Source: Bradyrhizobium sp. CCGB01
GTDB lineage: Bacteria > Pseudomonadota > Alphaproteobacteria > Rhizobiales > Xanthobacteraceae
Direction of reading: 5' to 3'
Assembly: GCF_024199795.1 (NCBI RefSeq)
Contig: NZ_JANADK010000001.1
Coordinates: 6,634,001 to 6,698,000 of the forward strand
Length of the DNA: 64,000 nucleotides
Shown: one piece after another, positions 9,611 to 29,910 of the stretch
How positions within the stretch are numbered: the stretch's first letter is position 1
Layout: every line of letters begins with the position of its first letter
Made by a program: the position numbers and the translations under genes
Notes under the pieces: generated by a model
Database searches by the model: none
Told to the model about the DNA's origin: nothing
Seen by the model: only the letters and a program-made list of their open reading frames with translations

Positions 9611-9634
9611 AAACATTTTAGGCTTAAAACAATT
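9611..9634 (-). promoter_or_regulatory. Shared island operator, site A
   Basis: AAACATTTTA-GGCT-TAAAACAATT matches the island palindrome (10-base arm, 4-base spacer, 10-base arm). It is centred about 58 bp before the aryl-CoA ligase start, overlapping or just upstream of the expected promoter. Confidence 0.65.
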
Positions 9635-9714
9635 TGGCGCAATAGCGGATTTTGGGCATCCCATGCATTTTCCTGCGGCAAGGTGGGACTGGCCGGCGTG
9701 TCCCGCTGGCGGAT

Positions 9715-10233
9715 CTACGGCCGGCGGCGACTGGCCGATTTCTGCGCCGACGCCTTGGTCTTGGCGAGAAGGCGCATCAATTCGCGGACATCCTTCGGGG
9801 TCAGGTCGGCGAACAGATCGGCAATCCAGGTCTCGTGCTCCGCAGCCATCCTGCGGAACTCGGCGCGGCCCAGCTTCGTGAGGCGGATCACCTGGACGCG
9901 GCGGTCCGTCTCCGAGGTACGGCGGTCGAGATGACCCGACTCCACGAGACGCTCGACGAGGCCGGTGACGTTGCCGTTGGACACCATCATGCGCTTGGAG
10001 ACGTCCGACAGCGTCATGCCGTCGGGCGCCTTGTCGAGCTGCGCCATCAGGTCGAACCGGGGCAGCGTGACGTCGAAGCGCTGCCGCAGGCGGCCGCGGA
10101 CTTCGCCCTCGATCAGGGTCGTGCAGGTGAGCAGACGCAACCACAGCCGAAGCTCTTCGGCATGGTCCTCCGGCGTCTCGACGGCCTTGGTCTCGGAATC
10201 GAGCATCTCGATGCAATCACTCACGGCCGGCAT
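9715..10233 (-). CDS. MarR-family winged-helix regulator, candidate regulator of the island
   Basis: The 172-residue protein has a typical MarR layout: N-terminal dimerisation helices, then the winged helix (DLMAQLDKAPDGMTLSDVSKRMMVSNGNVTGLVERLVESGHL, about 79-120) and the wing residues DRRVQVIRLTKLGR. Several characterised MarR proteins repress aromatic catabolism and release DNA on binding an aryl-CoA. It is the only classical transcriptional repressor I see in the 27-kb island. Two copies of the island palindrome lie between it and the divergent binding-protein gene, so autoregulation is likely. That it binds all seven palindromes is inference. Confidence 0.92.
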   Translation of the reverse strand: MPAVSDCIEMLDSETKAVETPEDHAEELRLWLRLLTCTTLIEGEVRGRLRQRFDVTLPRFDLMAQLDKAPDGMTLSDVSKRMMVSNGNVTGLVERLVESGHLDRRTSETDRRVQVIRLTKLGRAEFRRMAAEHETWIADLFADLTPKDVRELMRLLAKTKASAQKSASRRRP

Positions 10234-10253
10234 TGGCGCCGGCTCGGATTCCC

Positions 10254-10277
10254 CAACGTTTTGAGCTTCAAATAAAT
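10254..10277. promoter_or_regulatory. Shared island operator, site B
   Basis: CAACGTTTTG-AGCT-TCAAATAAAT lies 20 bases upstream of the marR-like ATG. It is the least perfect of the seven copies, which may suit weak autoregulation. Confidence 0.5.
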
Positions 10278-10322
10278 CGGCCCCGGCCGCAAGCCAAAAG
10301 CTGCAACAATCGACCGCACCAG

Positions 10323-10346
10323 AGTTTCTTTAGGCTTCAAATAATT
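10323..10346. promoter_or_regulatory. Shared island operator, site C
   Basis: AGTTTCTTTA-GGCT-TCAAATAATT lies 69 bp (centre to centre) from site B, in the divergent intergenic region before the substrate-binding protein gene. Sites A and C share the identical spacer GGCT. Confidence 0.6.
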
Positions 10347-10494: not shown

Positions 10495-11670
10495 ATGAAG
10501 ACGCAAATGACCTTGGCCGCAGCCGCCGTGGTGCTCGGCACCGCGGTGAGCCCTTCCCTCGCCCAGGAGAAGATCAAGCTGGGAGTGGTCGTGACCCTGT
10601 CGGGCCCCGCAGCCGCGCTCGGCCAGCAGGTCCGCGACGGCTTTGCGCTCGCAGTGAAGGACCTCGGCGGCAAGATGGGCGGGCGCGATGTCGAGGTGAT
10701 CGTCGCCGACGACGAATTGAAGCCGGACGCAGCGGTCACGAAGGTCAAAGGCCTCCTGGAGCGCGACAAGGTCGACTTTGTGGTCGGCCCGATCTTCTCC
10801 AACATCCTCCAGGCGATCCACCGCCCCGTGACGGAGTCCAAGACGTTCCTGATCAGCCCCAACGCGGGCCCGTCGACGTTCGCCGGCAAGGACTGCAACC
10901 CGTTCTTCTATGTGACGTCCTATCAGAACGACCAGGTCCATGAGATCCTCGGCAAGGTCGCGCAGGATCGTGGCTACAAGCGCATGTACCTGATGGTGCC
11001 GAACTATCAGGCCGGCAAGGATTCGGTGGCGGGTTTCAAGCTCGACTACAAGGGCGAGATCGTCGAGGAATCCTACATGCCGCTGAACACGTTGGACTTC
11101 CAGCCGGAGCTTTCCAAGATCTCGTCGCAGAAGCCCGATGCACTGTTCACGTTCATGCCGGGTGGCCTCGGCGTCAATCTCGTCAAGCAATACCGGCAAG
11201 CCGGCCTTGCCGACACAATTCCGGTGCTCTCGGCTTTCACGGTGGATGAATCGACGCTACCGGCGCAGCAGGATGCGGCCGTCGGCATGTTCGGCGGCGC
11301 GAACTGGGCGCCCAATCTCGACAATCCCCAGAACAAGAAATTCGTCGCTGCCTATGAGGCCGCCTATAACGTCGTGCCTGGCACCTACGCTTTCCAGGCC
11401 TATGACGCCGCGATGCTGATCGACAGCGCGGTCAAGGCCGTGAAAGGCGATCTCTCGAACAAGGATGCAGTCGGGGCTGCGCTGAAGAAGGCCGACTTCA
11501 CCTCGCTGCGCGGCGCCTTCAAGTTCAACACCAACGGTTATCCGATCCAGGATTTTTACCTGACCAAGGTCGCCAAGCGTGCGGACGGCAAGTTCCAGAC
11601 CGAGATCGTTCAGAAGGTCTTCGAGAATTATGGCGACCGGTATGCCAAGGACTGCAAGGCGGCGAACTAG
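10495..11670 (+). CDS. ABC transporter substrate-binding protein, LivK/branched-chain-amino-acid type
   Basis: The 391-residue periplasmic protein starts with a clear signal peptide (MKTQMTLAAAAVVLGTAVSP, cleavage near SLAQ-E) followed by IKLGVVVTLSGPAAALGQQV, the start of a PBP1-type binding fold. I chose ATG 10495 over an upstream in-frame ATG because only it puts the signal peptide first. Related proteins in aromatic-acid operons bind benzoate-type ligands rather than amino acids. No LivHMGF permease or ATPase genes accompany it, so it must share a transporter encoded elsewhere. Operator sites B and C precede it. Confidence 0.9.
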   Translation: MKTQMTLAAAAVVLGTAVSPSLAQEKIKLGVVVTLSGPAAALGQQVRDGFALAVKDLGGKMGGRDVEVIVADDELKPDAAVTKVKGLLERDKVDFVVGPIFSNILQAIHRPVTESKTFLISPNAGPSTFAGKDCNPFFYVTSYQNDQVHEILGKVAQDRGYKRMYLMVPNYQAGKDSVAGFKLDYKGEIVEESYMPLNTLDFQPELSKISSQKPDALFTFMPGGLGVNLVKQYRQAGLADTIPVLSAFTVDESTLPAQQDAAVGMFGGANWAPNLDNPQNKKFVAAYEAAYNVVPGTYAFQAYDAAMLIDSAVKAVKGDLSNKDAVGAALKKADFTSLRGAFKFNTNGYPIQDFYLTKVAKRADGKFQTEIVQKVFENYGDRYAKDCKAAN

Positions 11671-11697: not shown

Positions 11698-12153
11698 ATG
11701 AAGAGCGAAATCACCGGCATCACGCGGGCCAATGAAGGAATCCAGGGCATTTCCTGGAACATCCTCGGCCAGACCTATGTGCCGAAGAGCAATACCGAGC
11801 ACAGCTTCTCCTGGCACGCGACATTGCCGCCGGGCACGTTCGTGCCGCCGCACATCCATCCAGATCAGGATGAGTATCTCTACATGCTCGAAGGCAAGCT
11901 CGACTTCGTGCTCGGCAATTCGGAGTCGCAGGCGACCGCGGGCGATCTGATCCGCCTCGGCATGGGCGTGCCGCACGGAATCTTCAACAAGTCGGAGCAG
12001 ACCGCAAAAGTGCTGTTCTGGGTGTCGCCGACCAAAAAACTGTTCGACCTGTTCTGGGGCCTTCACAACATGAAGGAGCAGAAGCCCGAGGACGTGGTGG
12101 CGATGGCAGCCGAGTTCAACATCCACTTCCTGCCGCCGCCACCCGGCGGCTAG
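11698..12153 (+). CDS. Cupin-domain protein
   Basis: This 151-residue single cupin has the metal-site pattern PPHIHPDQDEYLYMLEGKLDFVLG (motif 1, about 46-69) and a second motif ending in GVPHGIFNKSEQ. The His/His/Glu set is present, so a bound metal is likely. A strong Shine-Dalgarno sequence (GGGAGG) precedes ATG 11698, 27 bases after the binding-protein gene, so they form an operon. Small cupins in aromatic operons can be dioxygenases, isomerases or ligand sensors; the sequence does not say which. Confidence 0.85.
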   Translation: MKSEITGITRANEGIQGISWNILGQTYVPKSNTEHSFSWHATLPPGTFVPPHIHPDQDEYLYMLEGKLDFVLGNSESQATAGDLIRLGMGVPHGIFNKSEQTAKVLFWVSPTKKLFDLFWGLHNMKEQKPEDVVAMAAEFNIHFLPPPPGG

Positions 12154-12155: not shown

Positions 12156-13406
12156 TTAAGCCCGCACCGCCGCAAGTCCCGGCACTGCGGCGAAGCCGGC
12201 CTTGGTGGCATAGCCGCGCACGATCGCTTCGCGCTGGGAATAGCTCAGCACGTTGTCGACATTGTCGAAGCCATCGGGCGCAAGCTGCTCGACCGCGTCG
12301 ATGACGCCTTCGGGGCCACCGCGCCGGTTGGAGCGGACGATGTCAGCGGTCATGGGCAGGCGCTTCTTCTCGTATTCGAGCAGCGCCTGGCGGGGATGCT
12401 CGGCGCGCACCAGCGCATCGGCAATGCAGCGCGCGTCGAGGATGGCCTGAGATGCGCCGTTCGAGCCTACCGGATACATCGGATGCGCGGCATCGCCGAG
12501 CAGCGTGACGCGCCCGGACGACCAGTAGGGCAAGGGATCGCGGTCGCAGGTCGGATATTCGTAGAATTCGGGTGTTGCCGAGATCAGGCTCCTCACGTCG
12601 ATATAGGGCACGGAGAAGCGTGCGACGTGCGGCATCAGTTCCTCGCGCCGGCCGGGCCGCGACCAATCCTCTTTCCGCGGCGGCGGGGCATTGCCCTCGC
12701 CGACCTTCACCAGCACTGCCCAGTTGGTGAGGCGGCTCGCGGGGCTCGATCCTTCCGCGATCGGATAGATCACCACCTTGGCATTGAGGCCACCGGCCAC
12801 GATCATCGACTTGCCGGTGAGGAACAGCGGCCAATCGCGCGCACCGCGCCACAGCATCAGGCCGTTCCAGCACGGCGGTCCCTCGTTCGGGAACAGCGTG
12901 TCGCGAACGCGTGAATGGATGCCGTCAGCACCGATCAGGATATCGCCGCGCGCAGTGTGGATGTGCACACCCGTGCGATCGAAGAAATAGGCGGTGACAC
13001 CGCCCTCGTCCTGCGTGAAAGCGCCGAGCCGGCAGCCGGTGTGGATTGCTGCGGGGCCGAGCCGCTCCTCGACAGCGCGATGGATGACGCCCTGAAGCCG
13101 GCCCCGGTGGATCGAGAATTGCGGCACATCGTGGCCGGCGTCGATGCCGCGGGCTTCGCGCCAGACCTCCTGACCGTGGCGATTGAGGTAATAGAGCTGG
13201 TCGGTGCGGATCGCGACGTCGTCGAGTTTCTGAAGCAGGCCGAGGCCGGCGAGTTCGCGCATCGCATGCGGCAACGTGTTGATGCCGACGCCGAGCTCGC
13301 GGATTGTATCGGCCTGCTCGAAGATCTCGCAGTCCAGGCCGCGCGAGCGCAGCATCAATGCCGTAGTGAGACCACCGATACCGCCACCGACGATAATCGC
13401 CTTCAT
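12156..13406 (-). CDS. FAD-dependent aromatic monooxygenase (PhzS/salicylate-hydroxylase-like)
   Basis: The 416-residue group A flavoprotein has the dinucleotide motif MKAIIVGGGIGGLTTALML at the start, the DG motif ILIGADGIHSRVR near 165 and GRVTLLGDAAHPMYPVGSNG near 305. ATG 13406 is preferred over an ATG 18 bases upstream because GGAG lies 10 bases before it and the FAD motif then begins the protein. Such enzymes hydroxylate aromatic rings with NAD(P)H and O2. It is downstream of the aminobenzoyl-CoA monooxygenase/reductase gene and its stop nearly abuts the convergent cupin gene. Substrate unknown. Confidence 0.88.
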   Translation of the reverse strand: MKAIIVGGGIGGLTTALMLRSRGLDCEIFEQADTIRELGVGINTLPHAMRELAGLGLLQKLDDVAIRTDQLYYLNRHGQEVWREARGIDAGHDVPQFSIHRGRLQGVIHRAVEERLGPAAIHTGCRLGAFTQDEGGVTAYFFDRTGVHIHTARGDILIGADGIHSRVRDTLFPNEGPPCWNGLMLWRGARDWPLFLTGKSMIVAGGLNAKVVIYPIAEGSSPASRLTNWAVLVKVGEGNAPPPRKEDWSRPGRREELMPHVARFSVPYIDVRSLISATPEFYEYPTCDRDPLPYWSSGRVTLLGDAAHPMYPVGSNGASQAILDARCIADALVRAEHPRQALLEYEKKRLPMTADIVRSNRRGGPEGVIDAVEQLAPDGFDNVDNVLSYSQREAIVRGYATKAGFAAVPGLAAVRA

Positions 13407-13458
13407 CGCCCTTACTCCACTCAATACCTAGGCAACGGGGTTAACGTCGCACGGGCGA

Positions 13459-15810
13459 TCACTCCGCCGCAAGCGGCTTTGTCGCCTCCGCCTTGAGCTC
13501 GGCCCGGGTCTTGGGCTTAGCCTTAATTCTCAGCTCCTCGAGATCCTGCCTGTCGCGCACGCTGTTGCGGAAAATCTGATCTTTTCCGGGGAGGTATTGC
13601 GGCGGACAGAACGCATCGTTTGCCCCGTACCAGGCCGCCGCCCTCATGGTAAAGAAGGGATCCACCAGATGCGGCCGGCCAAGCGCGACGAGATCCGCCC
13701 GGCCGGCCGCCAAAATGGTGTTGGCCTGGTCCGCGGTCGTGATGTTGCCGACGCACATGGTGGCGACACGCGCCTCGTTACGGACCTGGTCGGAAAACGG
13801 CGTCTGGAACATGCGGCCGTAGACCGGCTGCGCATCACGCACGGTCTGCCCGGTCGAGACGTCGACGAGATCGACGCCAGCCTCGGCAAAGGCGCGCGCA
13901 ATCGCAACCGCATCGTCGCCGGTGATGCCGCCGTCCGCCCAGTCGGTCGCGGAAATACGCACCGACATCGGCTTGTGCGACGGCCACACCGCCCGCAGCG
14001 CTTCGAAGATTTCGAGCGGAAAGCGCAGGCGGTTTTCGAGTGAGCCGCTATAGTCGTCCGTGCGGGCGTTCGTCAGCGGGGAGATGAAGCTCGCGAGCAG
14101 ATAGCCATGGGCGCAGTGCAATTCGAGCATGTCGAAGCCACAGCGCTCGCCGCGCTCGGCAGCTGCGACGAAGGCGTCCCTCACCGCGTTCATGCCGGCA
14201 CGGTCGAGCTCGTGCGGGACCTGGCTGTCCGGAAAATAAGGCAGCGGCGATGCCGAGAACACCTCCCAGCCGCCCTCGTCCAGGGGACGGTCCATGCCGT
14301 CCCACATCAGCTTGGTGGCGCCCTTGCGGCCGGCGTGGCCCAGCTGCAGGCAGATTCTTGTGGCCGAATTGCCGTGGACGAAATCCACGATGCGCCGCCA
14401 CGCCGCCTCCTGCTCGTCGTTCCACAGGCCGGCGCAACCAGGCGTGATCCGGGCGTCTCGGCTAACGCAGGTCATCTCGGTGAAGATCAGGCCGGCACCA
14501 CCGATCGCCCGCGAGCCGTAATGTACCAGGTGGAAATCGGTCGGTACTCCCTCCTTCGCCGAATACATGCACATCGGCGACACCACGGCCCGGTTGGCGA
14601 TCTCCATCTCGCGCAGGCGGAATGGCTGGAACAGCGGCACGATCGGCTTTTCCGTGTCGACGTCGAAGCCGCTGTCGCGAACCTGCCTGGCAAACGACTT
14701 CTCGACCTCAGCCACAAAATCCGGAGCGCGGAGCTTGAGGTTGTCATAGGTGATCGCCTTCGACCTCGTCATCACGCCGAAGGCGAATTGCACGGGATCG
14801 AAATCCCAGAAGCGGTCGACGTGCTCGAACCAGACCAGCGAAACGTCGGCGGCGTGCTGGGTCTTCTCGACCTCCTCGCGGCGGCCGTGCTCATAGACTT
14901 CCAGCGCTGCCTTGATGCTGGGCGCCTTCTCCATTGCATCGGCCAGTGCGATCGCGTCTTCCATCGCGAGCTTGGTGCCGGAGCCGATCGAGAAATGTGC
15001 GCTCGCCTTGGCGTCTCCGAGCAGCACCATGTTGTCCTTGACCCAACGCTTGCTGCGGACCATCGGGAAGTTGCGCCACATCGAACGGTTGGTGAGCAGC
15101 TTGTGCCCGTCGAGGAACCAGCCAAAAATCTCTGCCATCCGCGCCGCGGACTGGGTCTCGTTCAGCCCTGTCAGCCCTGCCCGCTCGAACGTCTCCGGAT
15201 CGGTCTCGAAAATCCAGGTCGAGTGCCCGGCTTCATACTGATAGGCGTGGGCAATGAACGGACCCCACTCAGTCTCCTGAAAGATGAATGTGAAGGCATC
15301 GAGTGGCCTGGTCGATCCCATCCAGGCGAACTTGTTGGAGCGGAGGTCCACCTCCGGCTGGAAGTGCTCGACATATTTTTCGCGGAAGCGGCTGTTGATG
15401 CCGTCGGCGAGCAGAACGAGATCGGCCTCGGCGAAACGGGACTCGTCGTCGATGTCCACCTCGAAATGCAGGACGACGCCGAGCTCCCGCGCCCGCTCCT
15501 GGAGGATCAGGAGCAGTTTCTGCCGCGAGCAGCCGCAAAAGCCGTTGCCGCCGACCCGATGCACCGTGCCGCGAAAGTGTACGGCGATATCGTCCCAGTA
15601 AGCGAACTCCTGGGTGATGCGGCGGTAACTCGGAAGATCATGCTTCTCAAAATTGTCCAGCGTGGCGTCGGAGAACACCACGCCGAAGCCGAACGTGTCG
15701 TCGGCCAGGTTGCGCTCGTATACGGCGATGTCAGCGCTCGGCCGCTGCTTCTTGAGCAGAATGGCTGCGTAGAGACCCGCAGGTCCGCCACCGATGATCG
15801 CGACTTTCAT
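13459..15810 (-). CDS. 2-aminobenzoyl-CoA monooxygenase/reductase-type fusion (annotated elsewhere as bifunctional salicylyl-CoA 5-hydroxylase/oxidoreductase)
   Basis: The 783-residue protein joins a flavin monooxygenase ([20 protein letters not shown], residues 1-about 390, with [21 protein letters not shown]) to an Old-Yellow-Enzyme-type NADH:flavin oxidoreductase (about 400-760, with [20 protein letters not shown] and [11 protein letters not shown]). This exact architecture is known from the Azoarcus evansii enzyme that monooxygenates and then reduces the ring of 2-aminobenzoyl-CoA. The start at 15810 is set by the FAD motif and by the perfect operator D at 15838-15861, which an earlier in-frame start would place inside the gene. 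It is the key enzyme for assigning the island to CoA-dependent aromatic degradation; a salicylyl-CoA substrate is the main alternative. Confidence 0.9.
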
Positions 15811-15837: not shown

Positions 15838-15861
15838 AATTATTTTAACCCTAAAATAATT
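15838..15861 (-). promoter_or_regulatory. Shared island operator, site D (perfect palindrome)
   Basis: AATTATTTTA-ACCC-TAAAATAATT is a perfect 10-base inverted repeat around a 4-base spacer. It sits 28 bases upstream of the monooxygenase/reductase ATG and serves as the reference for the other six copies. Confidence 0.75.
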
Positions 15862-15908: not shown

Positions 15909-16745
15909 TCAATCCCCCCTGAAGACCGGCTTGACCTTGTTGGCGAACGCTTCAAAGGCCCGTTCGAAATCGGCGGTCGTCATGCACAGGGCCTGGGCAA
16001 CGGCTTCCGCCTCGATTGCCTCTTCCACCGACATCGCCCATTCCATCGCCAGCATCCGCTTGGTCATGGTGTTGCCGAAGGTCGGTCCTTCCGCGACCTG
16101 CTTGGCCAGCAATTGTGCCTGGGGCAGCACCTGCTCAGGCGTGACGATGCGGCTGAAGAAGCCCCAGCGCTCGCCCTCTTCCGCGGTCATGAACCGGCCG
16201 GTAAACAGGAGCTCGGAGGCGCGGGACTGTCCGATGATCCGCGGCAGGATCGCGCAGGCGCCCATGTCGCAGCCACCAAGACCAACCTTGTTGAACAGGA
16301 ACGCGACCTTGGCGCCGCTCGCTGCGAGCCGCATGTCCGATGCCATCGCGATGATCGCGCCGGCGCCGGCGCAGATGCCCTCAACCGCGGCCACGATCGG
16401 CTGCGGGCAGGCCCGCATTGCCTTGACGAGGTCACCCGTCATCCGCGTGAAAGCCGTCAGCCCCTTGGTGTCCATCTTCACGAGCGGGCCGATGATCTCG
16501 AACACGTCGCCGCCGGACGAGAAATTACCCCCGGCGCCGGTGACGACGATCGCCTTCACCGCATCGTCGAAAGCGCAAGCGCGGAAGAAATCCGTCAGTT
16601 CCCGATAGCTTTCGAAGGTCAGCGGATTCTTCCGCTCGGGACGATTGAGCGTCACGTTGGCAACACCGTCGACAACAGCTAGCAGAAAGTGCTGCGGCGA
16701 ATAGTCCGCGAGCGGCACCGTCACAGGATTGGCTGGTCTGCTCAT
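15909..16745 (-). CDS. Enoyl-CoA hydratase/isomerase family protein
   Basis: The 278-residue crotonase-fold protein has the oxyanion-hole motif [20 protein letters not shown] (about 64-83) and the second loop [24 protein letters not shown] (about 119-142). It would hydrate an unsaturated acyl-CoA or open a ring in a crotonase-type reaction. It lies between the monooxygenase/reductase gene and the SDR gene on the same strand, consistent with the beta-oxidation-like steps that follow ring reduction. Confidence 0.9.
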
Positions 16746-16788: not shown

Positions 16789-17550
16789 TTAGATCTCACC
16801 GCCCGCAACCGCGATCGCCTGTCCTGTGATCGCGCCAGCGCCCTCGCCGCACAGCCAAAGCACGGCGTCTGCCACCTCTTGAGGCGTGATCAGCCGTCCC
16901 TGCGGATTGTGCTTCGCGAGCTCGGCGATCGCCTGGTCGCGGCTCCTGCCGGTCTTCTTCATGATGTTCTCGATGCTGCCGGCGACGAGATCGGTATCGG
17001 TGAAACCAGGACAGACCGCGTTCACGGTCACGTTGCTTCCGGCTATCTCCAGCGCAAGCGAACGGACGAGACCAACCACGGCGTGCTTGGCAGCCGTGTA
17101 GGCGCTGACATAAGCATAGCCCTTGAGCCCGGCCGTCGATGCAATTGCGACAATGCGACCATAGGGGCGATCCTTCATCCCCGGCAGAACGGCGCTGATG
17201 GCATGGACCACGCCCATGAAGTTGACGTCCATCATACGCGCGAACATTGCACTGTCGGATTTCGCAAACGGCGCGGATTCAGCGCTGCCCGCGTTGGCGA
17301 CCAGGATATCGATCGGCTGTCGCGCGCTCGCTTGCGCGATGGCGGCTTTCAACGACGCCTCGTCCGAGACATCGGCAACGGCCACAAAGTGCGCGGCGCC
17401 TGCCCCGACCGCCTCTTCGAGAACGGCGACGTTCCGGCCGAGCACCGTTACGGTCGCACCTGCCCCGACAAGAGAGGCCGCGATCGCGCGACCGATGCCG
17501 CGACCGCCACCGGTCACCAGCGCGTGCGGCGAGTGCGGCAATCCGGACAT
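16789..17550 (-). CDS. Short-chain dehydrogenase/reductase (SDR)
   Basis: The 253-residue classical SDR has the cofactor motif TGGGRGIGR near the start, NAG at about 90, catalytic Ser (AIASTAGLKG) and YTAAK. It probably oxidises a beta-hydroxyacyl-CoA or alicyclic alcohol intermediate. A longer frame opens at 17604, but that start would include operator E (17587-17610). ATG 17550 puts the Rossmann motif at the normal distance, so I use it. It heads the leftward hydratase and monooxygenase gene group. Confidence 0.9.
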   Translation of the reverse strand: MSGLPHSPHALVTGGGRGIGRAIAASLVGAGATVTVLGRNVAVLEEAVGAGAAHFVAVADVSDEASLKAAIAQASARQPIDILVANAGSAESAPFAKSDSAMFARMMDVNFMGVVHAISAVLPGMKDRPYGRIVAIASTAGLKGYAYVSAYTAAKHAVVGLVRSLALEIAGSNVTVNAVCPGFTDTDLVAGSIENIMKKTGRSRDQAIAELAKHNPQGRLITPQEVADAVLWLCGEGAGAITGQAIAVAGGEI

Positions 17551-17586: not shown

Positions 17587-17610
17587 ATATATTTTAACCT
17601 TCAAGTTTTT
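17587..17610 (-). promoter_or_regulatory. Shared island operator, site E
   Basis: ATATATTTTA-ACCT-TCAAGTTTTT lies 37 bases before the SDR ATG. The left arm matches the site D arm at 8 of 10 positions and the spacer differs from D by one base. Confidence 0.6.
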
Positions 17611-17666: not shown

Positions 17667-17690
17667 AATTGCTTTAAGTATAAAATTATC
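17667..17690 (+). promoter_or_regulatory. Shared island operator, site F
   Basis: AATTGCTTTA-AGTA-TAAAATTATC lies 57 bases before the GTG start of the alpha/beta hydrolase operon and 80 bp from site E, so the divergent promoters each have one copy. Confidence 0.62.
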
Positions 17691-21397: not shown

Positions 21398-22482
21398 AGA
21401 TCGCAGTTCTGGGAGGGGGAAACGGCTCTTTCGCGGCCGCCGGCGATTTTGCGCTATCGGGACATGAGGTCCGACTCTGGCGCCGCGACGCGGAGCGGGT
21501 TTCGGCACATCGCGCCGCCGGCTCGCGCATCCTGGTGAAGGACCATAATGGCCCTCACGACGTGAAGCTCGCGCTCGTCACGACCGACATCGCCGAAGCC
21601 GTCAACGGCACAGAGCTGATCCTGTGCCCCGCCCCTGCCTTCGCACAGCCGGACATTGCTCGACTGCTCGCCCCGCATTTGCGGGATGGACAAGTCGTAT
21701 TTCTGCCGCCAGCGACATTCGGCTCGATGATCTTTGCCCAGGCTGCGAGGGATGCTGGCAACCACGCGAAAGCGAGTTTTGCCGAAACCGGGACACTACC
21801 ATGGCTCACCCGCAAGCACGGTCCGTTCGAGGTCGCGATCACCATCCGCGCCAAGCGACTGCCGGTCGGCGTGTTCCCGCTCGACCAGGAATCGCATGCG
21901 CTCGCGGTGATTGGGCACGCTTTCCCCGATGTGATCGAGCCCTGTGGAGACGCGCTGTCCGGCGCACTGATGAATGCAGGCCCGATCATCCATCCGCCGC
22001 TGATCGTGATGAATGCTGGCCCCATCGAGCATTTCGAAAAGTGGGACATCCACAAGGAGGGCACACAGGCCGCAATCCGACGGGTGACAGACGCGCTCGA
22101 CGCCGAGCGGATCGCCGTGCGCGAGGCGCTCGGCTATGGCGCGCCCCACTACCCGCTCGCTCACCACTACGCCAAGGAAGGCGAGATCTGGATGTACGGC
22201 CGCGGCTCGCATGACCGCCTGACCGATTCCGGCGACTGGCGCGAGCGGATCGTGCTGACCGAGCACCGTTACATGCGCGAAGATCTGCGGCTTGGTCTGT
22301 CGCTACTGGTCTCCGTCGCCGGCTTGGCGGGCGTGGCGACGCCGCTGGCCAAAGCATTTCTGGCCATCGGCGGCGCGATCTGCGGTGAGGATTTTGCAAA
22401 GAGCGGCCGAACGCTCGATACGCTGGGGCTTGGCAATCTCGGCAAGGCCGAACTGCAGACGCTTCTTCGCACGGGATTTTGA
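21394..22482 (+). CDS. NAD(P)-dependent octopine/nopaline-dehydrogenase family protein
   Basis: The 362-residue protein has an N-terminal Rossmann domain (MKIAVLGGGNGSFAAAGDFA) and the C-terminal opine-dehydrogenase domain (about 185-330), including HPPLIVMNAGPIEHFEKWD and the active-site region YGAPHYPLAHHY. Such enzymes make or oxidise N-(carboxyalkyl)amino acids. The start is TTG at 21394, overlapping the previous stop (TTGA) with a strong AAGGAG 7 bases upstream. An opine-type enzyme inside an aryl-CoA operon is unusual; it might process an amino-acid-like, nitrogen-bearing intermediate. Confidence 0.85.
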   Translation: MKIAVLGGGNGSFAAAGDFALSGHEVRLWRRDAERVSAHRAAGSRILVKDHNGPHDVKLALVTTDIAEAVNGTELILCPAPAFAQPDIARLLAPHLRDGQVVFLPPATFGSMIFAQAARDAGNHAKASFAETGTLPWLTRKHGPFEVAITIRAKRLPVGVFPLDQESHALAVIGHAFPDVIEPCGDALSGALMNAGPIIHPPLIVMNAGPIEHFEKWDIHKEGTQAAIRRVTDALDAERIAVREALGYGAPHYPLAHHYAKEGEIWMYGRGSHDRLTDSGDWRERIVLTEHRYMREDLRLGLSLLVSVAGLAGVATPLAKAFLAIGGAICGEDFAKSGRTLDTLGLGNLGKAELQTLLRTGF

Positions 22483-22485: not shown

Positions 22486-23478
22486 ATGACCAGCCGCACC
22501 AACATTGCCTGTCTCGGGGCCGGCCGCATGGGGCGCGGCATCGCCGTCGCGTTCGCCTACGCCGGGCATACGGTCGCGATGATCGACATCAAGGCGCGTT
22601 CCGCAGAGGACTTCGCGAAGCTGGAAGGGGAAGCGCTCGGCGAAGTCAGGACAACCTTTGCGAGCCTGTCGAAGCTGGGGCTGCTGACCGAGGCAGATGT
22701 TGATCCCCTCATCGCGCGGGTCTCGGTGGTGCCGGCCAGCCAAAGCGGTGCGACACTGGCCCGAGCCGGAATGGTCTTCGAGGGCGTTCCCGAAGTCGTC
22801 GAGCTCAAGCGCGAGGTGCTGGAAGCGGCTTCAAAGCAAGTCGGCCCCGATACGATCATCGCATCGACGACCTCCACAATTCTCGTCGACGATCTCTCCG
22901 ACGTGATCGTGAACCCTCGCCGCTTCCTCAACGTGCACTGGCTCAACCCGGCCTATCTGATCCCGCTGGTCGAGGTTTCACCCGGCAAAGCCACCGACCC
23001 CGCCATCATCGACGAGGTGAAGGCCCTGCTTGAAGGCATCGGCAAGGTGCCGGTGGTCTGCGCGGCGACGCCAGGGTTCATCGTCCCGCGTATCCAGGCA
23101 CTGGCGATGAACGAGGCCGCACGCATGGTCGAGGAAGGTGTTGCCAGCGCCGAGGAGATCGACAAGGCGATCCGCTACGGCTTCGGCTTCCGCTACGCCG
23201 TGCTCGGGCTGCTCGAGTTCATCGACTGGGGTGGCGGCGACATCTTGTACTACGCCAGCCGATATCTCGAAGGCGCACTTGGCAGCGACCGCTATCGCGC
23301 GCCGGACGTCATTTCCCGCAATATGCACGAGGGCCGGATCGGCCTGCGCACTGGCGCAGGCTTCCTCGATTATTCAGGCATGGACGTCGACGCCTATCGC
23401 GCAAAGCGGCTTCAGGCCATGGTCGACCTGCTCCGGCACTTCGACCTGGCTCGCCCGCCTGTGCTCGATCGCAACTAG
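22486..23478 (+). CDS. 3-hydroxyacyl-CoA dehydrogenase (3-hydroxybutyryl-CoA dehydrogenase type)
   Basis: The 330-residue enzyme has the NAD-binding motif CLGAGRMGRGIAVAFAYAG, the catalytic region LNVHWLNPAYLIPLVEV (His near 148) with VPRIQALAMNEAARMVEEGVA, and a C-terminal dimer domain. It would oxidise a 3-hydroxyacyl-CoA with NAD+. It ends the rightward operon. Its TAG and the TAG of the convergent NicX-like gene overlap in the same CTAG (23475-23478), so the two genes share their stop bases. Confidence 0.9.
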   Translation: MTSRTNIACLGAGRMGRGIAVAFAYAGHTVAMIDIKARSAEDFAKLEGEALGEVRTTFASLSKLGLLTEADVDPLIARVSVVPASQSGATLARAGMVFEGVPEVVELKREVLEAASKQVGPDTIIASTTSTILVDDLSDVIVNPRRFLNVHWLNPAYLIPLVEVSPGKATDPAIIDEVKALLEGIGKVPVVCAATPGFIVPRIQALAMNEAARMVEEGVASAEEIDKAIRYGFGFRYAVLGLLEFIDWGGGDILYYASRYLEGALGSDRYRAPDVISRNMHEGRIGLRTGAGFLDYSGMDVDAYRAKRLQAMVDLLRHFDLARPPVLDRN

Positions 23479-24521
23479 CCAAAGACGTCCTGAAGCACGC
23501 CTTCCCGCACCACCGCCACGCCATCGAGCTCGATGGTCGTTCCCATCATCGGCAAATCAAAATGGCCCGCCGTATAGCGGCCCGCGAATTCGTTCGCGCC
23601 GGTCGAGAACAGGAAATTGCCGGAGACAGCACGGATCTCCGTGCCGTTGGTGTCACGCTGGTCGTACATTGACAGCGCTTCGTAGCGCGCGCCCGGGTTC
23701 ATGCCGAAACCGACATGTGAGACCGCATAGGCCTCGCGATCGCCCCAAGCGGCGAGATAGGCGCGCATCATCGCGGCATCCGTGCCCTCGCCGTCCAGCT
23801 CGACGACGTAATCGTCCTTCAAGGTCATCTTCACCGGCGACGTCAGGTAGCGCTTGAAGGTCAGGTTGATGTCACCAGGCGCCATTACGAGCGTGCCGTT
23901 GATCGTCCCGCTCTTGGGGAAGCTGACGACGATGCCGCCCGGCCAGTGCGCCAGCGTGCCCGGCTTGTCGGTCCATCCCCAGACGCCGACCGTAGACGCA
24001 CCGACCATATCCACGTCGAGCGCGGTGCCCGCCTTCGAGGTAACCCGCATCCGCTTGGTTCCACGCAGCATCTTGGCGGCTGCGCGGACACGCTTCTCCA
24101 GCGCGGGATCCGGCACCATGCGCTCCAGCGCCTCGGGATGTTCGTTGGAGATCACCAGGATCCGCGCGCCGGCTTTCAGGATCTCGGGCGTCTCCACGGC
24201 GTGCATCAGGCCCTCAATGGTGCAGTCCACGACAAAACCGGCCTGCTGAAGGGCGGTGATGACCGGGCCAAGCCTTTGGATCGCCTCGCTCGCTCCTGTC
24301 GAGCGAACCGGCACGATATTCCGGTTACGCGGCGTCGGCATCACAACATGAAACGGCCTCGCACCTATCCGCAACAGCGCGAGCTCCGCCAGATGCACGT
24401 TCAACGCGCGCGATTGGGTTTCCGAGAGGATCGCCGCGGTATCGCCAGCCTTGACGGCGCAGCGCTCAAAGATCTCGCAAAATGCGTCGATCCATTTTGC
24501 CTCGATGCGGTCAGCCAGCAT
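23475..24521 (-). CDS. NicX-like ring-cleaving dioxygenase (2,5-dihydroxypyridine 5,6-dioxygenase family), often labelled M29 leucyl aminopeptidase
   Basis: The 348 residues align by eye along most of the length with Pseudomonas NicX, the Fe(II) 2,5-dihydroxypyridine 5,6-dioxygenase: VTSKAGTALDV, DKPGTLAHWPGGIVVSFP, GTLVMAPGDI, SHVGFGMNPGARYEALSMYDQ, ISGNFLFSTGANE-like and GHFDLPMMG. As I recall, NicX iron is held by two His and one Asp; here SHVGFG gives one His and GHFDLP gives the H-x-D pair. The fold is shared with M29 peptidases, which explains the peptidase label. Substrate could be a hydroxylated pyridine or another N-containing ring. Confidence 0.75.
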   Translation of the reverse strand: MLADRIEAKWIDAFCEIFERCAVKAGDTAAILSETQSRALNVHLAELALLRIGARPFHVVMPTPRNRNIVPVRSTGASEAIQRLGPVITALQQAGFVVDCTIEGLMHAVETPEILKAGARILVISNEHPEALERMVPDPALEKRVRAAAKMLRGTKRMRVTSKAGTALDVDMVGASTVGVWGWTDKPGTLAHWPGGIVVSFPKSGTINGTLVMAPGDINLTFKRYLTSPVKMTLKDDYVVELDGEGTDAAMMRAYLAAWGDREAYAVSHVGFGMNPGARYEALSMYDQRDTNGTEIRAVSGNFLFSTGANEFAGRYTAGHFDLPMMGTTIELDGVAVVREGVLQDVFG

Positions 24522-24559: not shown

Positions 24560-25327
24560 TCACGCTTCAGGAAATCCCCGCAAGAGATACGATCGCACGG
24601 CGCCCAACAAGCCATTCAGGATCAACCCGAGCAGCGAGATCGTGATCAGCGGCACGAACATGTCAACCGCCTGAAACGTTCGCGCAGCCGTGACGAGCAT
24701 ATGGCCAAGTCCGTCCGTCGACGTGATCATCTCGGCCAGAAACACCACGATGCAGGAAATGACAAGCCCGATCCGGCAACCGGTCAGGATCGAGGGCATT
24801 GCCGCCGGCAACACCACCTTGAACAGGATTTCATAGCGCGGCGTTCCCGCCGCCATGGCCGACCAGATCAGCTTCTGCTCGACGGTCGATGCGCCGTAGT
24901 AGGTGGACAGCAGAATGGGAAAGAGAGCGTCCGCCGCCACCAGCGTGATCTTCGACCCATGACCGAAACCGAGCAACAGCAGAAGTGCCGGATAGAGCGC
25001 GACCTTGGGCAACGGCGCCAACACCCGGACGATCGGTCGAACCACCGCGTTGATCGCCGGATTGGCCGCAGCGGCGATGCCGATGCTCACGCCGAGCACG
25101 ACCGCGATCGCAAAACCGGCAAACAGCCGGATCAGGGTCGCCGCGATCTCCTGCTGGAACGTCCACGTCACAAGCTGCTGGAGCAGCCGGCTGAAGACAT
25201 ATCCCGGCGGCGGCAGCAAGACCGCAGGCGCGAAGCCGAATGATACGAGGCCTTGCCACAGCGCGATCACCAGCACGATCGGCGCGAGCCCGAGGAAGAC
25301 GTTTACCGAGAGAAGGCGCGATGTCAT
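24560..25327 (-). CDS. ABC transporter permease, NitT/TauT (SsuC) type
   Basis: The 255-residue inner-membrane protein has about six hydrophobic segments and the ATPase-contact (EAA) loop AAGTPRYEILFKVVLPAAMPSILTG (about 147-171). The upstream in-frame start at 25411 lies deep inside the preceding gene; ATG 25327 gives the 4-base ATGA overlap usual for these operons and starts the protein at MTSRLLSV. It forms a heterodimeric channel with the next permease. Confidence 0.88.
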   Translation of the reverse strand: MTSRLLSVNVFLGLAPIVLVIALWQGLVSFGFAPAVLLPPPGYVFSRLLQQLVTWTFQQEIAATLIRLFAGFAIAVVLGVSIGIAAAANPAINAVVRPIVRVLAPLPKVALYPALLLLLGFGHGSKITLVAADALFPILLSTYYGASTVEQKLIWSAMAAGTPRYEILFKVVLPAAMPSILTGCRIGLVISCIVVFLAEMITSTDGLGHMLVTAARTFQAVDMFVPLITISLLGLILNGLLGAVRSYLLRGFPEA

Positions 25328-26109
25328 GAGAAGCTCAGCGGCATGTCGAACTGAGGCTCGGACCAGCGCACCAGCCGCGCGCGGACCCGTTCGAAGATCG
25401 CATCCAGGCAAATTCCCATCGCGCCAACGATGATGATCATCGCGAAGACCGTGTCGTACTGCCCCATGTCGAGCGCATTAAAGAGGATGTTGCCTGCGCC
25501 GGACTGGCGGGCGATCATCTCGCTGGTGATCATCGTGATCAGCGCGAGCACGAGTCCTGTACGGCACCCGGTCAGGATCTCCGGCAGCGCCGCCGGCAGC
25601 ACGATCCGCACCAGCCTTTGCACCGGCGAAAGCCCCATGGCCGCCCCCGACCACAGCATCTTCTCTTCGACCGCCTTGGCACCCTCGAAGCTATGATAGA
25701 TCACAGGCAAGCTGACGCCGAGGAAGATCACCAGCGTCTTCGTAATATCGCCGACGCCCAGCCACAGCATGATGATCGGCATCAGTGCCGCCTTCGGCAC
25801 CGGGTAGATTACCATCAGGAGCGGATTGAAGAAGGCTGCGACCGCTCGGCTGCGTCCCATCAAGAGACCGAGCGGAATCGACACCAGCACGGCGATGCCG
25901 AATCCGATCGCCATGCGGCGGAGCGAGGCGAGAATGTTGATCAGGGACTCCTTGTCGCCAAGGATATCGGGGATCGCACGGATCGCCTCGATCGCCGTCG
26001 GGAAACTATCGTTCTTCAACGCCAGCGAACTGACCTGCCACGCCACCAGCAATCCGATGCAGGCGAGCACCGGGGCAGCGCGTCTCATCACGACGGCCAA
26101 TGAAATCAT
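25324..26109 (-). CDS. ABC transporter permease, NitT/TauT (SsuC) type
   Basis: The 261-residue inner-membrane protein is a paralogue of its neighbour with the EAA loop AAMGLSPVQRLVRIVLPAALPEILTG (about 165-190). Both ends overlap neighbouring genes by ATGA, so the ATPase and two permeases are translationally coupled. Two different permeases with one ATPase and one binding protein is less common than the single-permease nitrate/taurine system. Confidence 0.88.
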   Translation of the reverse strand: MISLAVVMRRAAPVLACIGLLVAWQVSSLALKNDSFPTAIEAIRAIPDILGDKESLINILASLRRMAIGFGIAVLVSIPLGLLMGRSRAVAAFFNPLLMVIYPVPKAALMPIIMLWLGVGDITKTLVIFLGVSLPVIYHSFEGAKAVEEKMLWSGAAMGLSPVQRLVRIVLPAALPEILTGCRTGLVLALITMITSEMIARQSGAGNILFNALDMGQYDTVFAMIIIVGAMGICLDAIFERVRARLVRWSEPQFDMPLSFS

Positions 26110-26951
26110 GGGGTAGACCCGGGTTGGTCGCTCTCGTCGAACATGCGCTCGATGTCGACGACGTATTTCTGATAGCGCGGGTCGAGCAACAACTCGTTGC
26201 GGCGGCGTGGCCGCGGAAGGTTGATGTCGATCACCTGCCGGATACGGCCGGGCGATTTCGACATCATCACCACCTTGTCCGACAGAAAGACGGCCTCGTC
26301 GACCGAGTGGGTCACGAACAGCACCGTCTTACGGTCGCGCTCCCAGATATTCAGGAGATCGTTCTGCAGACGCGTCCGGGTGTGAGCATCGAGCGCACCG
26401 AACGGCTCGTCCATCAGCAGGACCTCGGGATGGTAGGCGAGCGTGCGAGCCAGAGCGACGCGCTGCTTCATGCCGCCGGACAGTTCCTTCGGATAGAAAT
26501 TCTCATAGCCCTTGAGGCCGACCATCTCGATCAGAGCCCGGCTTTGCGCTTCTGCATCGGTGGCGCGCACACCCTGCTGGCGCGGACCGTACATGACGTT
26601 GCCCAGCACAGTCTTCCACGGAAACAGCGCGAACTCCTGAAACACCGGACCGCGGTCCGGCCCGGGCCCCGTGATCGCCTGCCCCTTGATCTTTGCCGCG
26701 CCGCTGGTCGGGCTGACGAAACCGCCGACGATGTAGAGCAGCGTAGACTTGCCGCAGCCAGACGGACCGAGGATGGAAACGAAGGCTCCCTCGTCGATCG
26801 TCAGCGAGATGTCCGACAGCGCCAAATGATCCTTCCGCGCCGAGGTCTGAAAAACCTGCGAGACGCGGTCGATCTCGATGATCGCAGAAGCCGGCTTTGG
26901 TGACGTCACCGGTTTCACCCATTCGCTCGATCTCGAAGGCGCTACCTTCAT
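26106..26951 (-). CDS. ABC transporter ATPase, NitT/TauT (SsuB) type
   Basis: The 281-residue ATPase has Walker A GPSGCGKST, Q-loop VFQEFALFPWKTV, signature LSGGMKQRVALARTLA, Walker B VLLMDEPFGALD and the H-loop VLFVTHSVDEAV. I use ATG 26951 (MKVAPSRSSEW) because a purine-rich stretch precedes it; a start at 26987 is possible. It powers uptake of the ligand of the binding protein at 28848-29831, whose gene is separated from it by the dehydratase gene. Confidence 0.9.
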   Translation of the reverse strand: MKVAPSRSSEWVKPVTSPKPASAIIEIDRVSQVFQTSARKDHLALSDISLTIDEGAFVSILGPSGCGKSTLLYIVGGFVSPTSGAAKIKGQAITGPGPDRGPVFQEFALFPWKTVLGNVMYGPRQQGVRATDAEAQSRALIEMVGLKGYENFYPKELSGGMKQRVALARTLAYHPEVLLMDEPFGALDAHTRTRLQNDLLNIWERDRKTVLFVTHSVDEAVFLSDKVVMMSKSPGRIRQVIDINLPRPRRRNELLLDPRYQKYVVDIERMFDESDQPGSTP

Positions 26952-27074
26952 CTTGTCTCTCGCCTCACCCGCACGCCCCTCGCGCAACCGATCAGCTGAT
27001 CGTTCTCTTTCAGCAGCGCGAGCTTAGCAAGAAACTTGCCAGACTACCGGCTGTTTCCGCGCGGACGCGGCGCG

Positions 27075-28769
27075 TCATTCGAACCAGGGCCATTCTGCAG
27101 GCCCCTCATGTGTGACCGCTCCTCCGGGCGCCTGGCCAACCAGCCGCGCATATTTTGCGAGCGCACCTGCGCGGTGACGCGGCGGCCGTTGCTTCCAGTC
27201 GCGACGCCGCGCGGCGAGTTCCCGCTCATCGACCAGCATATCCATCCGCCGGTTTGCGGCATCAATCCGGATCCTGTCGCCGTCGCGAACGAGCGCCAGC
27301 GGACCGCCGACAAACGCTTCCGGAGACACATAGCCGATGCACATGCCGCGGGTCGCGCCGGAGAACCGTCCATCGGTGATGAGAGCCACCTTCTCGCCCA
27401 TACCCTGGCCATAGATCAGCGCAGTGACGCCGAGCATCTCGCGCATGCCGGGGCCGCCGACCGGTCCTTCATTGCGGATCACCAGCACCTCGCCCGCTTT
27501 GTAACTGCGGTCGCGAACCGCCGCGACACAGGCTTCCTCATCTTCGAAAACGCGCGCCACGCCCTCGAAAAATTGGTTCTTCAAACCCGCGACCTTGATC
27601 ACCGCACCGTCCGGGCAGAGATTGCCCTTCAACACAGCCACACCACCGTCGGGCATGATTGGCGCGCGGGCCGGGTAAACGACTTCTCCATCGGGAGGGT
27701 TGGCCGCGCCATATTCTTCAGCGAGCGTGCGTCCGGTGACGGACAAGCAGCTCCCATCGATGTGACCGCTCTGGATCAGCTCGCGGATCACTACGGCGGC
27801 ACCGCCAATATCGTAGACGTCCTTTGCAGTGTACTTGCCGCCCGGTCGCAAGTTTCCGATCAACGGCGTCCTTGCAAAAACCTCGCCGACGTCATCGATC
27901 GTGAACGCGATCCCCGCCTCATTCGCGATCGCCGGCAGATGCAGCGCCGCGTTGGTCGAACCGCCCGTCGCAGCGACAATGGCCGCACCGTTCTCAAGGG
28001 ATTTCCGCGTCACGATGTCGCGCGGCAGCGGCCTCCCTCGTTCCAGCATCTCCATGATCAGCCGCCCCGCGCGCCGCGATATCTGCGCGCGCTCGGCATA
28101 GACACCGGGCACCATCGAGACGTTCGGAATGGTCAGGCCCATCGCCTCCGAAACCATGCCCATCGTGTTCGCGGTAAACTGGCCGGCGCAGGCGCCAATG
28201 GTGGGCAGGCAGGCGCGCTCGATCCGCTCAAGTGTGGCGCCGTCGATCTCTCCGGTCATGAAGCTGCCGACAGCTTCATAGGAGTCGAGCACCGTGAGGG
28301 TTCGTCCGTCTACTCGGCCCGGCAGCGAGCTGCCGCCGTAGATGAAAATGGATGGTACGTTGCAACGAACCATGCCCATCATCACACCGGGAAGCGTCTT
28401 GTCGCATCCGCCGTAACCGATCAGCGCGTCATAGGCGAGACCATGGACGACGGCTTCGATCGAATCGGCAATCAGCTCACGCGAAAAGAGAGAAAACTTC
28501 ATTCCCTCGTGATTCATGCTGATGCCGTCGGAGACTGACACGGTCGAAAATTCGCGTGGCGTGCCGCCAGCCTCCTCGATTCCCGTCTTGGCTGCGGCCA
28601 CCTGGAAGTCGTGGGTCATGTTGCAGGGCGTCTGCTCGCCCTTCATGCTGACGACGCCCACCATCGGCTTGGCAATCGCAGCGTCATCGAGCCCCATTGC
28701 GCGCATGAAAGCGCGGTGCGGAGCCCGGTCAAGGCCGTCTGTCGTGACTCGTGATCGCAACTTCTTCAT
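27075..28769 (-). CDS. IlvD/Edd-family dehydratase
   Basis: The 564-residue protein has the three cysteine motifs of the dihydroxy-acid dehydratase [2Fe-2S] site: TPCNMT (near 49), [11 protein letters not shown] (near 117) and [15 protein letters not shown] (near 190), plus the [10 protein letters not shown] catalytic serine loop. It is full length. IlvD homologues in catabolic islands dehydrate sugar acids or hydroxy acids rather than make amino acids. Its place between importer genes, with no other branched-chain synthesis gene, supports a catabolic role. It lies 79 bases downstream of the binding-protein gene on the same strand. Confidence 0.85.
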
Positions 28770-28847
28770 AAGTGCATCTTCTTAATACAGCGTCCCGGAT
28801 GATCCGGGGCGCTGCGATCTTCCTTGTTCGAATGTTTGTCCGGCCGC

Positions 28848-29831
28848 CTATTCCAGCGGCGCGACGATCGTCGGATGCTTGAATTGCGCAGCATCCAGCT
28901 TCGGCAGCATCCCCGTCTCCGCGTAGATGTCGAGCATCTTCTGGATCGCCGGGAAGTTCGGTGCTGCGCCGGGGTCGCGACCGAAATCGTTGTCTTTGAG
29001 CAGATAGGTCTCGAGCACCGGAATAGGCGCCTTGAGGACTTCATTCACGACCTTTAGCGTCTCTTCACGGTTCGCCAGTGCCTTCTTCATGCCTAACGTG
29101 ATATCGCGGACATAGGCCTTGACGACCTCCGGGTTCTTGTCGACGAAATCGGCACGGCACGCTTCCAGGATGTGCACGATGTTCGGCATGGCCTGCGACA
29201 GGGAGAACAATTTGCGGGTGCCGCCCTTTGCCTCCGCCCGCGCGGCAAACGGCTGATTCATGTTGACCGCGTCGACGCGGCCCTGGCGCAACGCATCTTC
29301 AGAGACGGCAAAGCCAACCTCGACCAGCTTGATATCCTTTGCCGGATCGACGCCGTTCTGCTTCAGGAGCAGGTTGAACGGGCCTTGCGTGCCGCCGCCG
29401 ATCACGGAAATGCCGACCGTCTTGCCCTTGAGATCCGCAATCGTCTTGATCGGCGAGTCATCCATCACCGCCCAATAGACCGAAAAACCGCCGGGCTTCT
29501 CGAAGACGTGCTGCGCCACGATGTAGGCCTTGAGATTGCCGCCGACCACGCCGTTCGCGAGCGACAGCGGCGCTTGCGTCGCGCAATCGAGAGCGCCGGC
29601 CGCCAATGCCTGCGTCATCGGCGCGGTGCCCTGAAACTGGGTCCATTCGATGTTGTAGGCCTTGCCGATATTGGGAAACTCGGCCGGCCTGCGCATCATC
29701 CAGTACTTGGATTCCTCGGCCGGGATCGTCCAGCCGACGCGGATGGTCTGCTGCGCCCATGACGGGCCTGCACCCGCGGTCATAGCCGCGGTCGCCCCCA
29801 AAGCCAGGATCCACTTCGAAACGGTTCGCAT
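28848..29831 (-). CDS. NitT/TauT-type ABC substrate-binding protein
   Basis: The 327-residue protein has a signal peptide (MRTVSKWILALGATAAMTAG, cleavage near SWAQ-Q) and the SsuA/TauA-like pattern TIRVGWTIPAEESKYWMM and DLKGKTVGISVIGGGTQGPFNLLLK. ATG 29831 is preferred over 29870 because it puts the signal peptide first. Relatives bind sulfonates, nitrate, pyrimidine precursors or small aromatic acids. It heads the leftward group dehydratase-ATPase-permease-permease-NicX, and operator site G lies 56 bases before its ATG, tying this arm to the aryl-CoA arm. Confidence 0.88.
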   Translation of the reverse strand: MRTVSKWILALGATAAMTAGAGPSWAQQTIRVGWTIPAEESKYWMMRRPAEFPNIGKAYNIEWTQFQGTAPMTQALAAGALDCATQAPLSLANGVVGGNLKAYIVAQHVFEKPGGFSVYWAVMDDSPIKTIADLKGKTVGISVIGGGTQGPFNLLLKQNGVDPAKDIKLVEVGFAVSEDALRQGRVDAVNMNQPFAARAEAKGGTRKLFSLSQAMPNIVHILEACRADFVDKNPEVVKAYVRDITLGMKKALANREETLKVVNEVLKAPIPVLETYLLKDNDFGRDPGAAPNFPAIQKMLDIYAETGMLPKLDAAQFKHPTIVAPLE

Positions 29832-29886
29832 CGTGCCCACTCCGCTGCTCCGGCGCTGACTGGCGCCCACTCAACCCGACCGCCGC

Positions 29887-29910
29887 AAATGTTTCATGGT
29901 TCAAACAATC
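29887..29910. promoter_or_regulatory. Shared island operator, site G
   Basis: AAATGTTTCA-TGGT-TCAAACAATC shares the arm-spacer-arm layout of site D, with a C in each arm replacing the outer T/A of the core. It lies between the divergent binding-protein gene and the 3-hydroxyisobutyrate-dehydrogenase-like gene, 12 kb from site F. Confidence 0.5.

Follow-up and report, generated by a model that had tools for sequence, protein, structure and literature searches.

Do seven similar inverted repeats, spread over some 20 kb of DNA from the soil bacterium Bradyrhizobium sp. CCGB01, serve as operators of one regulator, and which pathway would that regulator control? The repeats (sites A to G, Table 1) lie in a stretch of 64,000 nt (contig NZ_JANADK010000001.1, positions 6,634,001 to 6,698,000), called the window below. 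A sequence-only reading of the window had described them as seven copies of one palindrome and had named the MarR-family protein encoded at 9715 (the local MarR) as the binder. Our analysis confirms all seven repeats as conserved control elements; the protein that they serve is very probably a MarR-type repressor governing the breakdown of anthranilate. Judged from sequence comparison, it is likely that they are operators of the local MarR itself (9715–10233) and that an anthranilate regulon has its core in them.

All seven 24-mers were found at the positions listed in Table 1. Each site was scored in the 64-kb window with a matrix built from the other six; the scores ranged from 23.4 to 37.9 bits, and no site ranked below seventh in the window. 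With the matrix built from all seven sites, the best other non-overlapping position in the window scored 10.0 bits. None of 50 first-order Markov sequences (64 kb each) contained a position at the score of the weakest site (27.6 bits), the highest value being 22.6 bits. In the genome (9,317,328 bases), exact matches to a degenerate pattern derived from sites A to G number eight, each at a distinct place, and seven of them are these sites; since the pattern was built from the sites themselves, it is informative only in its rarity elsewhere. The places of pattern matches refer to about the 100 best of 170 and about the 100 best of 195, exact and one-mismatch matches coming first. Twenty regions of 20 kb around other MarR genes of the same genome contained no position of at least 17 bits (highest 15.9 bits). 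An equal frequency of the motif at unrelated promoters, which the sequence-only reading had named as evidence against itself, was not seen among the exact genome matches or in these 20 regions. We found no link to the regulon for the sites of 17–20 bits at 571260, 4532155, 5365261 and 1850609. A site-like sequence at 2173170 (27.2 bits) was taken as a chance match; as judged by eye, it adjoins the apparent 3′ end of a tRNA gene.

The sequence-only reading had also suggested comparing the sites in related genomes that keep the marR-like gene, and there the sites are conserved. Sites A, B and C were each present in 79 of the 80 Bradyrhizobium loci, the exception (L093) being a lone marR copy. 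For each site, mean column identity to the window was compared with that of the rest of its intergenic stretch, with 61–79 loci aligned: 0.99 versus 0.83 for site A, 0.97 versus 0.83 for site B, 0.92 (core 0.99) versus 0.73 for site D (61 loci), and 0.94 and 0.99 versus 0.80 for sites E and F (76 loci each). The best non-site 24-mers of these stretches had identities of 0.84–0.96 (0.93 in the stretch of site E). Site G, scored with a matrix built without it, reached at least 17 bits in 29 of 30 loci (own genome included; taken from 63 matching genomes) and 16.8 bits in the remaining one. The exceptional locus L093, from Bradyrhizobium sp. Ghvi, holds a second marR copy of that strain, 97% identical, with no catabolic cluster and just a 16-bit site.

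Outside Bradyrhizobium, too, the motif accompanies this type of marR gene, both in other genera and in a different family. Of the 398 genomes in a sample of the phylum, 74 encode a match to the local MarR (E ≤ 1e-20), the window's own genome included; some of these proteins are closer to MarR3, a paralogue described below. From these matches we took the 50 genomes that lie outside the window's family and had DNA to scan, and 39 of them have a site of at least 20 bits; 60 column-permuted symmetric matrices reached that score in 0.6 of the same 50 genomes on average (maximum 11). In a further family we examined 20 loci with this MarR type and with the gene that follows site D in the window, a monooxygenase/old-yellow-enzyme fusion presumed to be 2-aminobenzoyl-CoA monooxygenase/reductase (hereafter ACM). 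The best position stands directly before ACM (within ∼80 bp) in 19 of the 20 loci; 14 loci reach 17 bits and nine reach 20 bits. Permuted matrices gave on average 0.9 of these loci at 15 bits (maximum 10) and 0.2 at 20 bits (maximum 4). The 20 loci were taken from 30 (81 genomes matched) after leaving out loci of the auxin-degradation (iad) type, those with no ACM nearby and, to keep the number at 20, a few others (for example L352 and L356). Sinorhizobium, Aminobacter, Thalassospira and Rhizobium plasmids carry the MarR, ACM and a site before ACM, and the plasmid clusters of Aminobacter and Thalassospira include kynU and kynA. The ACM genes of Azospirillum thermophilum stand immediately behind iad genes, and the site there scores 21.9 bits; no site of 15 bits was present in the iad stretch examined in Ruegeria pomeroyi.

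In the window, gene order and strand suggest that the block from 7.9 to 29.9 kb consists of seven transcription units with one site before each. These are the ligase gene (site A); marR (B); the transporter-protein and cupin genes (C); ACM and the FAD monooxygenase gene (D); the genes of the short-chain dehydrogenase (SDR) and the enoyl-CoA hydratase family protein (ECH) (E); the genes from the hydrolase to the 3-hydroxyacyl-CoA dehydrogenase (F); and the NitT-type transporter operon ending in the NicX-like gene (G). The local MarR has a MarR winged-helix domain (PF12802, contig positions 6643898–6644074; 45.5 bits against a cut-off of 27).

Table 1. Putative operator sites and genes of the block (window coordinates).
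Feature	Coordinates	Strand	Remarks
Site A	9611..9634		Putative operator, 47 bp before ligase ATG (9564), presumed 2-aminobenzoate-CoA ligase
Site B	10254..10277		Putative operator, 21 bp before marR ATG (10233), putative autoregulation; leave-one-out 23.4 bits, rank 7
Site C	10323..10346		Putative operator, ends 149 bp before ATG 10495; substrate-binding protein and cupin genes
Site D	15838..15861		Putative operator, perfect palindrome, 28 bp before ACM ATG (15810)
Site E	17587..17610		Putative operator, 37 bp before SDR ATG (17550); SDR-ECH genes
Site F	17667..17690		Putative operator, ends 57 bp before GTG 17747; hydrolase-acyl-CoA dehydrogenase-ligase-dehydrogenase genes
Site G	29887..29910		Putative operator, 17 bp before GTG 29870; NitT-type transporter operon
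Benzoate-CoA ligase family, presumed 2-aminobenzoate-CoA ligase	7873..9564	-	TIGR02262, 387.9 bits vs cut-off 375.25
MarR-family regulator, presumed regulon repressor	9715..10233	-	MarR_2 domain above cut-off; PDB 3boq E=6.9e-21
Branched-chain-type ABC substrate-binding protein	10495..11670	+	TIGR03407 E=1.1e-28, below cut-off
Cupin protein	11698..12153	+	PF07883
FAD monooxygenase	12156..13424	-	NF005720, 575 bits vs cut-off 400
ACM, monooxygenase/old-yellow-enzyme fusion, presumed 2-aminobenzoyl-CoA monooxygenase/reductase	13459..15810	-	NF006101, 1133.9 bits vs cut-off 1078; open, 783 aa
Enoyl-CoA hydratase family (ECH)	15909..16745	-	NF006107, 463.5 bits vs cut-off 330
Short-chain dehydrogenase (SDR)	16789..17550	-	
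Alpha/beta hydrolase	17747..18562	+	
Acyl-CoA dehydrogenase	18570..19859	+	
AMP-forming CoA ligase	19862..21397	+	NF004837, 489.9 bits vs cut-off 476
Octopine/nopaline dehydrogenase-family protein	21394..22482	+	PF02317
3-Hydroxybutyryl-CoA dehydrogenase family	22486..23478	+	NF006125, 537.5 bits vs cut-off 427
NicX-like protein, last gene of site G operon	23475..24521	-	PDB 7cn3 E=1.7e-47; no Pfam family above cut-off
NitT-type transporter: two ABC permeases and ATPase	24560..26987	-	
Dihydroxy-acid dehydratase family	27075..28769	-	TIGR00110, NF002068
NitT/SsuA-type substrate-binding protein, first gene after site G	28848..29870	-	TIGR01728 E=1.1e-34, below cut-off

The sequence-only reading thus had the places and the specificity of the sites right, as it did the idea of a regulon bounded by them, to which the genome comparison lends good support; the conservation of the distant site G fits that regulon, and the NicX-like call was correct. 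Other parts of its description held in part. The copy at 15838 is perfect (10 of 10 arm positions pair strictly), whereas the repeat is loose elsewhere: 7 of 10 positions pair at 9611 and 29887, 6 of 10 at 10323, 17587 and 17667, and 3 of 10 at 10254. Site C does lie ∼150 bp before its gene, but the other six are 17–57 bp from the start codon, not 20–60 bp; and the promoters are not divergent at 9611 and 15838, where both flanking genes run on the minus strand. The operon behind site G (23475–29870), whose tie to anthranilate is putative, joins genes of a NitT-type transporter, a dihydroxy-acid dehydratase-like protein and a NicX-like protein. Elsewhere in the window (51957–52012) there are two adjoining imperfect palindromes, with 7 and 9 of 10 arm pairs, unrelated to the operator.

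The eighth exact copy of the pattern, at 3915030 (41.2 bits), lies in the iad locus of the same genome between two divergent genes, one for MarR2 (at 3914308), the closest paralogue of the local MarR (48% identical), and one for ACM2, a second ACM. A further MarR of that locus, MarR3, is encoded at 3890568, and weaker copies of the site (3906651 and 3906843) lie in the DNA that separates a transporter-protein gene from an Asp/Glu-racemase gene. Genes for a Rieske dioxygenase, a reductase, a ligase and indolepyruvate-oxidoreductase-type enzymes are near the iad MarRs. Another copy, at 4664823 (25.9 bits), is located ∼70 bp before an operon of a hydrolase gene, kynA (tryptophan 2,3-dioxygenase) and kynU (kynureninase); it was present in all 30 genus loci examined (of 44; own genome included). 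Tryptophan leads to anthranilate. So does auxin breakdown, according to the available text of PMC9613470. The iad locus was identified by a MarR there that matches PDB 7kym (E=7.2e-97); we assume that this entry is the IadR from B. japonicum in that paper, where the code is listed and the IadR structure is described. While the sequence-only reading had named the sites and their probable binder, the substrate, the paralogous MarR and the copy at the kynurenine operon were not named in it. As side observations, a gene for a caspase-domain (Peptidase_C14) protein lies ∼3 kb past ACM2 in the window's own genome (L112:10701–12014), and relatives of the palindrome scoring 20–24 bits precede iad reductase/dioxygenase or oxidoreductase genes (L125:4757–4780, L217:5212, L213:11654 and 11810, L215:10850 and 11005); the latter are possibly the operator of MarR3-type regulators.

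The presence of ACM2 is tied to the loss of ACM from the central cluster. No ACM was visible in 17 of the 80 Bradyrhizobium clusters; leaving aside two clusters cut by contig ends and the lone marR copy, 14 remain. All 14 genomes carry an ACM2 that is 92–96% identical to the ACM2 of the window's genome and is preceded by a palindrome of 38–41 bits; MarR2 adjoins it in 13 of them and was not seen beside ACM2 in L320 within the DNA examined. ACM2 was found in one of 27 genomes that were searched, out of 30 chosen from the 63 loci with ACM (Fisher's p = 4e-10, with no kinship correction; G111 was taken as the genome of L032 and counted once). The remnants of ACM vary in length between genomes, and site D is kept although ACM is deleted in L031, L076 and L081. 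A tree of 76 clusters, made by a quick method, needs eight changes of the ACM label, at least six of them forced by well-supported branches. We read these data as a redundancy that has come up repeatedly: with the same operator before it, ACM2 can supply the enzyme of the central pathway. Against this stands the clustering of ACM loss on the tree (8 changes versus 13.1 in shuffled labels); the losses are partly inherited, so the 14 cases are not 14 independent events. Displacement is not obligatory either, because the window's genome and G771 keep both ACM and ACM2 open; moreover, the match to ACM2 in G756 falls into two pieces, so the gene may be interrupted there. A suspected break of the cluster ACM in G771 was dropped, as the TGA lies beyond the gene end; all 63 retained ACMs are without a stop.

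Several observations weigh against the operator reading. With up to two mismatches, the pattern has 170 matches genome-wide (87 + 83) and the reversed pattern 154 (90 + 64), which is no clear excess. Site B, a poor palindrome in its arm pairing, rests on its matrix score and conservation, and the identity of site C (0.92 versus 0.83 for the rest of its stretch) is not above that of the best non-site 24-mer there (0.93). A promoter scan that covered sites A to F revealed no sigma-70-like promoter and nothing above chance (site G was outside the scan). No site of at least 20 bits was detected in 11 of the 50 genomes of other families; in six of these only ∼3.4 kb of DNA was examined, but the other five, with 18–19 kb examined, had best scores of 19.3 (G379), 18.5 (G246), 15.8 (G527), 12.6 (G410) and 11.0 bits (G322). 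Among the 19 positions before ACM in the further family, five score below 12 bits; in other families the sites diverge from those of the window, on which the matrix is based. The sites might be AT-rich promoter elements or chance palindromes, as could be suspected from their closeness to start codons and their AT-richness inside a window of 63% G+C. We regard this as very improbable: permuted symmetric matrices of the same composition found few matches, the 20 other MarR regions had none, and the mean conservation of the sites exceeds that of neighbouring intergenic DNA. As to the substrate, the ligase, ACM and ECH pass NCBIfam cut-offs and together fit the 2-aminobenzoyl-CoA route of aerobic anthranilate degradation as published for Azoarcus evansii (PMC4539516, available text). 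The NCBIfam equivalog name of the ACM family, salicylyl-CoA 5-hydroxylase, points the other way, to a central cluster that degrades salicylate via salicylyl-CoA; the assignment to anthranilate therefore rests on context. Salicylate seems quite unlikely to us, given that kynA/kynU or iad genes adjoin the same regulator, enzyme and operator, and that ACM is replaced by ACM2 from an anthranilate-making locus. From gene context, the substrate of the cluster is most probably anthranilate.

As for the binder, the comparison between genomes supports the local MarR, as the sequence-only reading had supposed; yet it may not be the sole binder, because the site recurs beside the paralogous MarR of the auxin locus and before the kynurenine operon. 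The sequences would allow binding by the local MarR, by MarR2 or by both. An alternative has the sites as operators read mainly by MarR2 or MarR3, or contested among the MarRs, with the local MarR tuning part of the regulon. The strongest outside copy adjoins MarR2 and nearly equals site D, and the recognition helices of these MarRs look alike by eye in an alignment. In a MarR tree (56 of 95 rows), L134, MarR2 and MarR3 form one group apart from IadR, with a long-branch warning; L134, 89% identical to the local MarR, stands in for the window's protein, which is absent from the tree, its nearest copies (L031, L040, L090) having been filtered. The tree gives no order among the relative of the local MarR, MarR2 and MarR3, nor a place for the iad-linked MarRs of other genomes. 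Still, 26 of the 27 searched genomes that keep ACM are without ACM2 and thus probably without MarR2 (MarR2 itself was not searched), yet their clusters have sites A to F; we consider a paralogue as the main reader unlikely. It is also rather doubtful, though less so, that the repressor answers to anthranilate itself or to some other small acid and not to a CoA thioester, in view of CouR and BadR, which belong to the MarR type, repress aryl-CoA pathways and have CoA thioesters as their ligands. The IAA-binding IadR and IacR proteins (IAA, indole-acetic acid) respond to free acids, whereas no binding of IAA was seen with MarR_50 and MarR_Bj2, both of the IadR2 type (PMC9613470, available text).

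With the local MarR as repressor and a CoA thioester as the likely inducer, the regulon would work as follows. As long as substrate is absent, a MarR dimer on the palindromes would block the promoters of all seven units, marR included. Anthranilate would come from uptake, from tryptophan (kyn genes) or from IAA (iad genes); the ligase would turn it into 2-aminobenzoyl-CoA, which would release the repressor, and ACM and the beta-oxidation-like enzymes would then degrade this thioester. Control may be joint between MarR and MarR2. As MarR2 would read a near-identical operator, the auxin, tryptophan and central blocks could be switched together, and the iad-linked ACM2 could replace the central ACM.

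Extended further, this scheme bears on the second MarR that stands in iad loci beside the IAA-binding IadR (Conway et al. 2022, PMC9613470). These loci let bacteria relieve auxin-induced root growth inhibition. In the available text of that paper, neither a ligand nor a DNA site was identified for MarR_50 (IadR2); in its deletion mutant gene 51 alone reached high expression when IAA was absent, and the locus seemingly responded more strongly to IAA. We propose, with more doubt than confidence, that in Bradyrhizobium the auxin, tryptophan and uptake routes to anthranilate are linked through a single operator and a family of MarRs which sense 2-aminobenzoyl-CoA, that IadR2 is such a sensor, reporting the end product of auxin breakdown and not auxin, and that the shared operator led to the repeated takeover of the central ACM by ACM2. 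Should MarR2 or MarR3 prove to be IadR2, the palindrome would become a candidate DNA site and 2-aminobenzoyl-CoA a candidate ligand, which would make an unsolved regulator of auxin breakdown testable. The part on the IadR2 operator is a proposal because results on SDR-MarR units in another genus (one species with iad genes) were mixed: of three species, one had a position of 20.8 bits before the SDR, one had 14.6 bits and one had none, and in a fourth no such SDR was seen beside marR. Apart from IadR2, the palindrome offers a transferable operator for a widespread pathway, and the ACM-less genomes a natural experiment in which an enzyme was replaced by a paralogue under apparently the same control. 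Among the matches listed in a literature search, with subscription papers mostly outside its scope, there was no regulator or operator for this pathway.

Three known systems invite comparison. CouR and BadR show the arrangement predicted here, in which a MarR dimer controls an aryl-CoA pathway from a palindrome; the window's MarR belongs to another sequence subgroup, and CouR is just a weak PDB match of MarR3. The pathway of Azoarcus evansii has, like the window, a CoA ligase, a monooxygenase/reductase fusion and then beta-oxidation-type enzymes; unlike that account, which in its available text names no regulator or operator (PMC4539516), the window has seven putative operators over seven putative units. 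IadR and IadR2 are of the same protein family as the local MarR, and MarR2 and MarR3 are likewise extra MarRs in an iad locus (PMC9613470, available text); the window's MarR differs from them in standing outside the iad locus.

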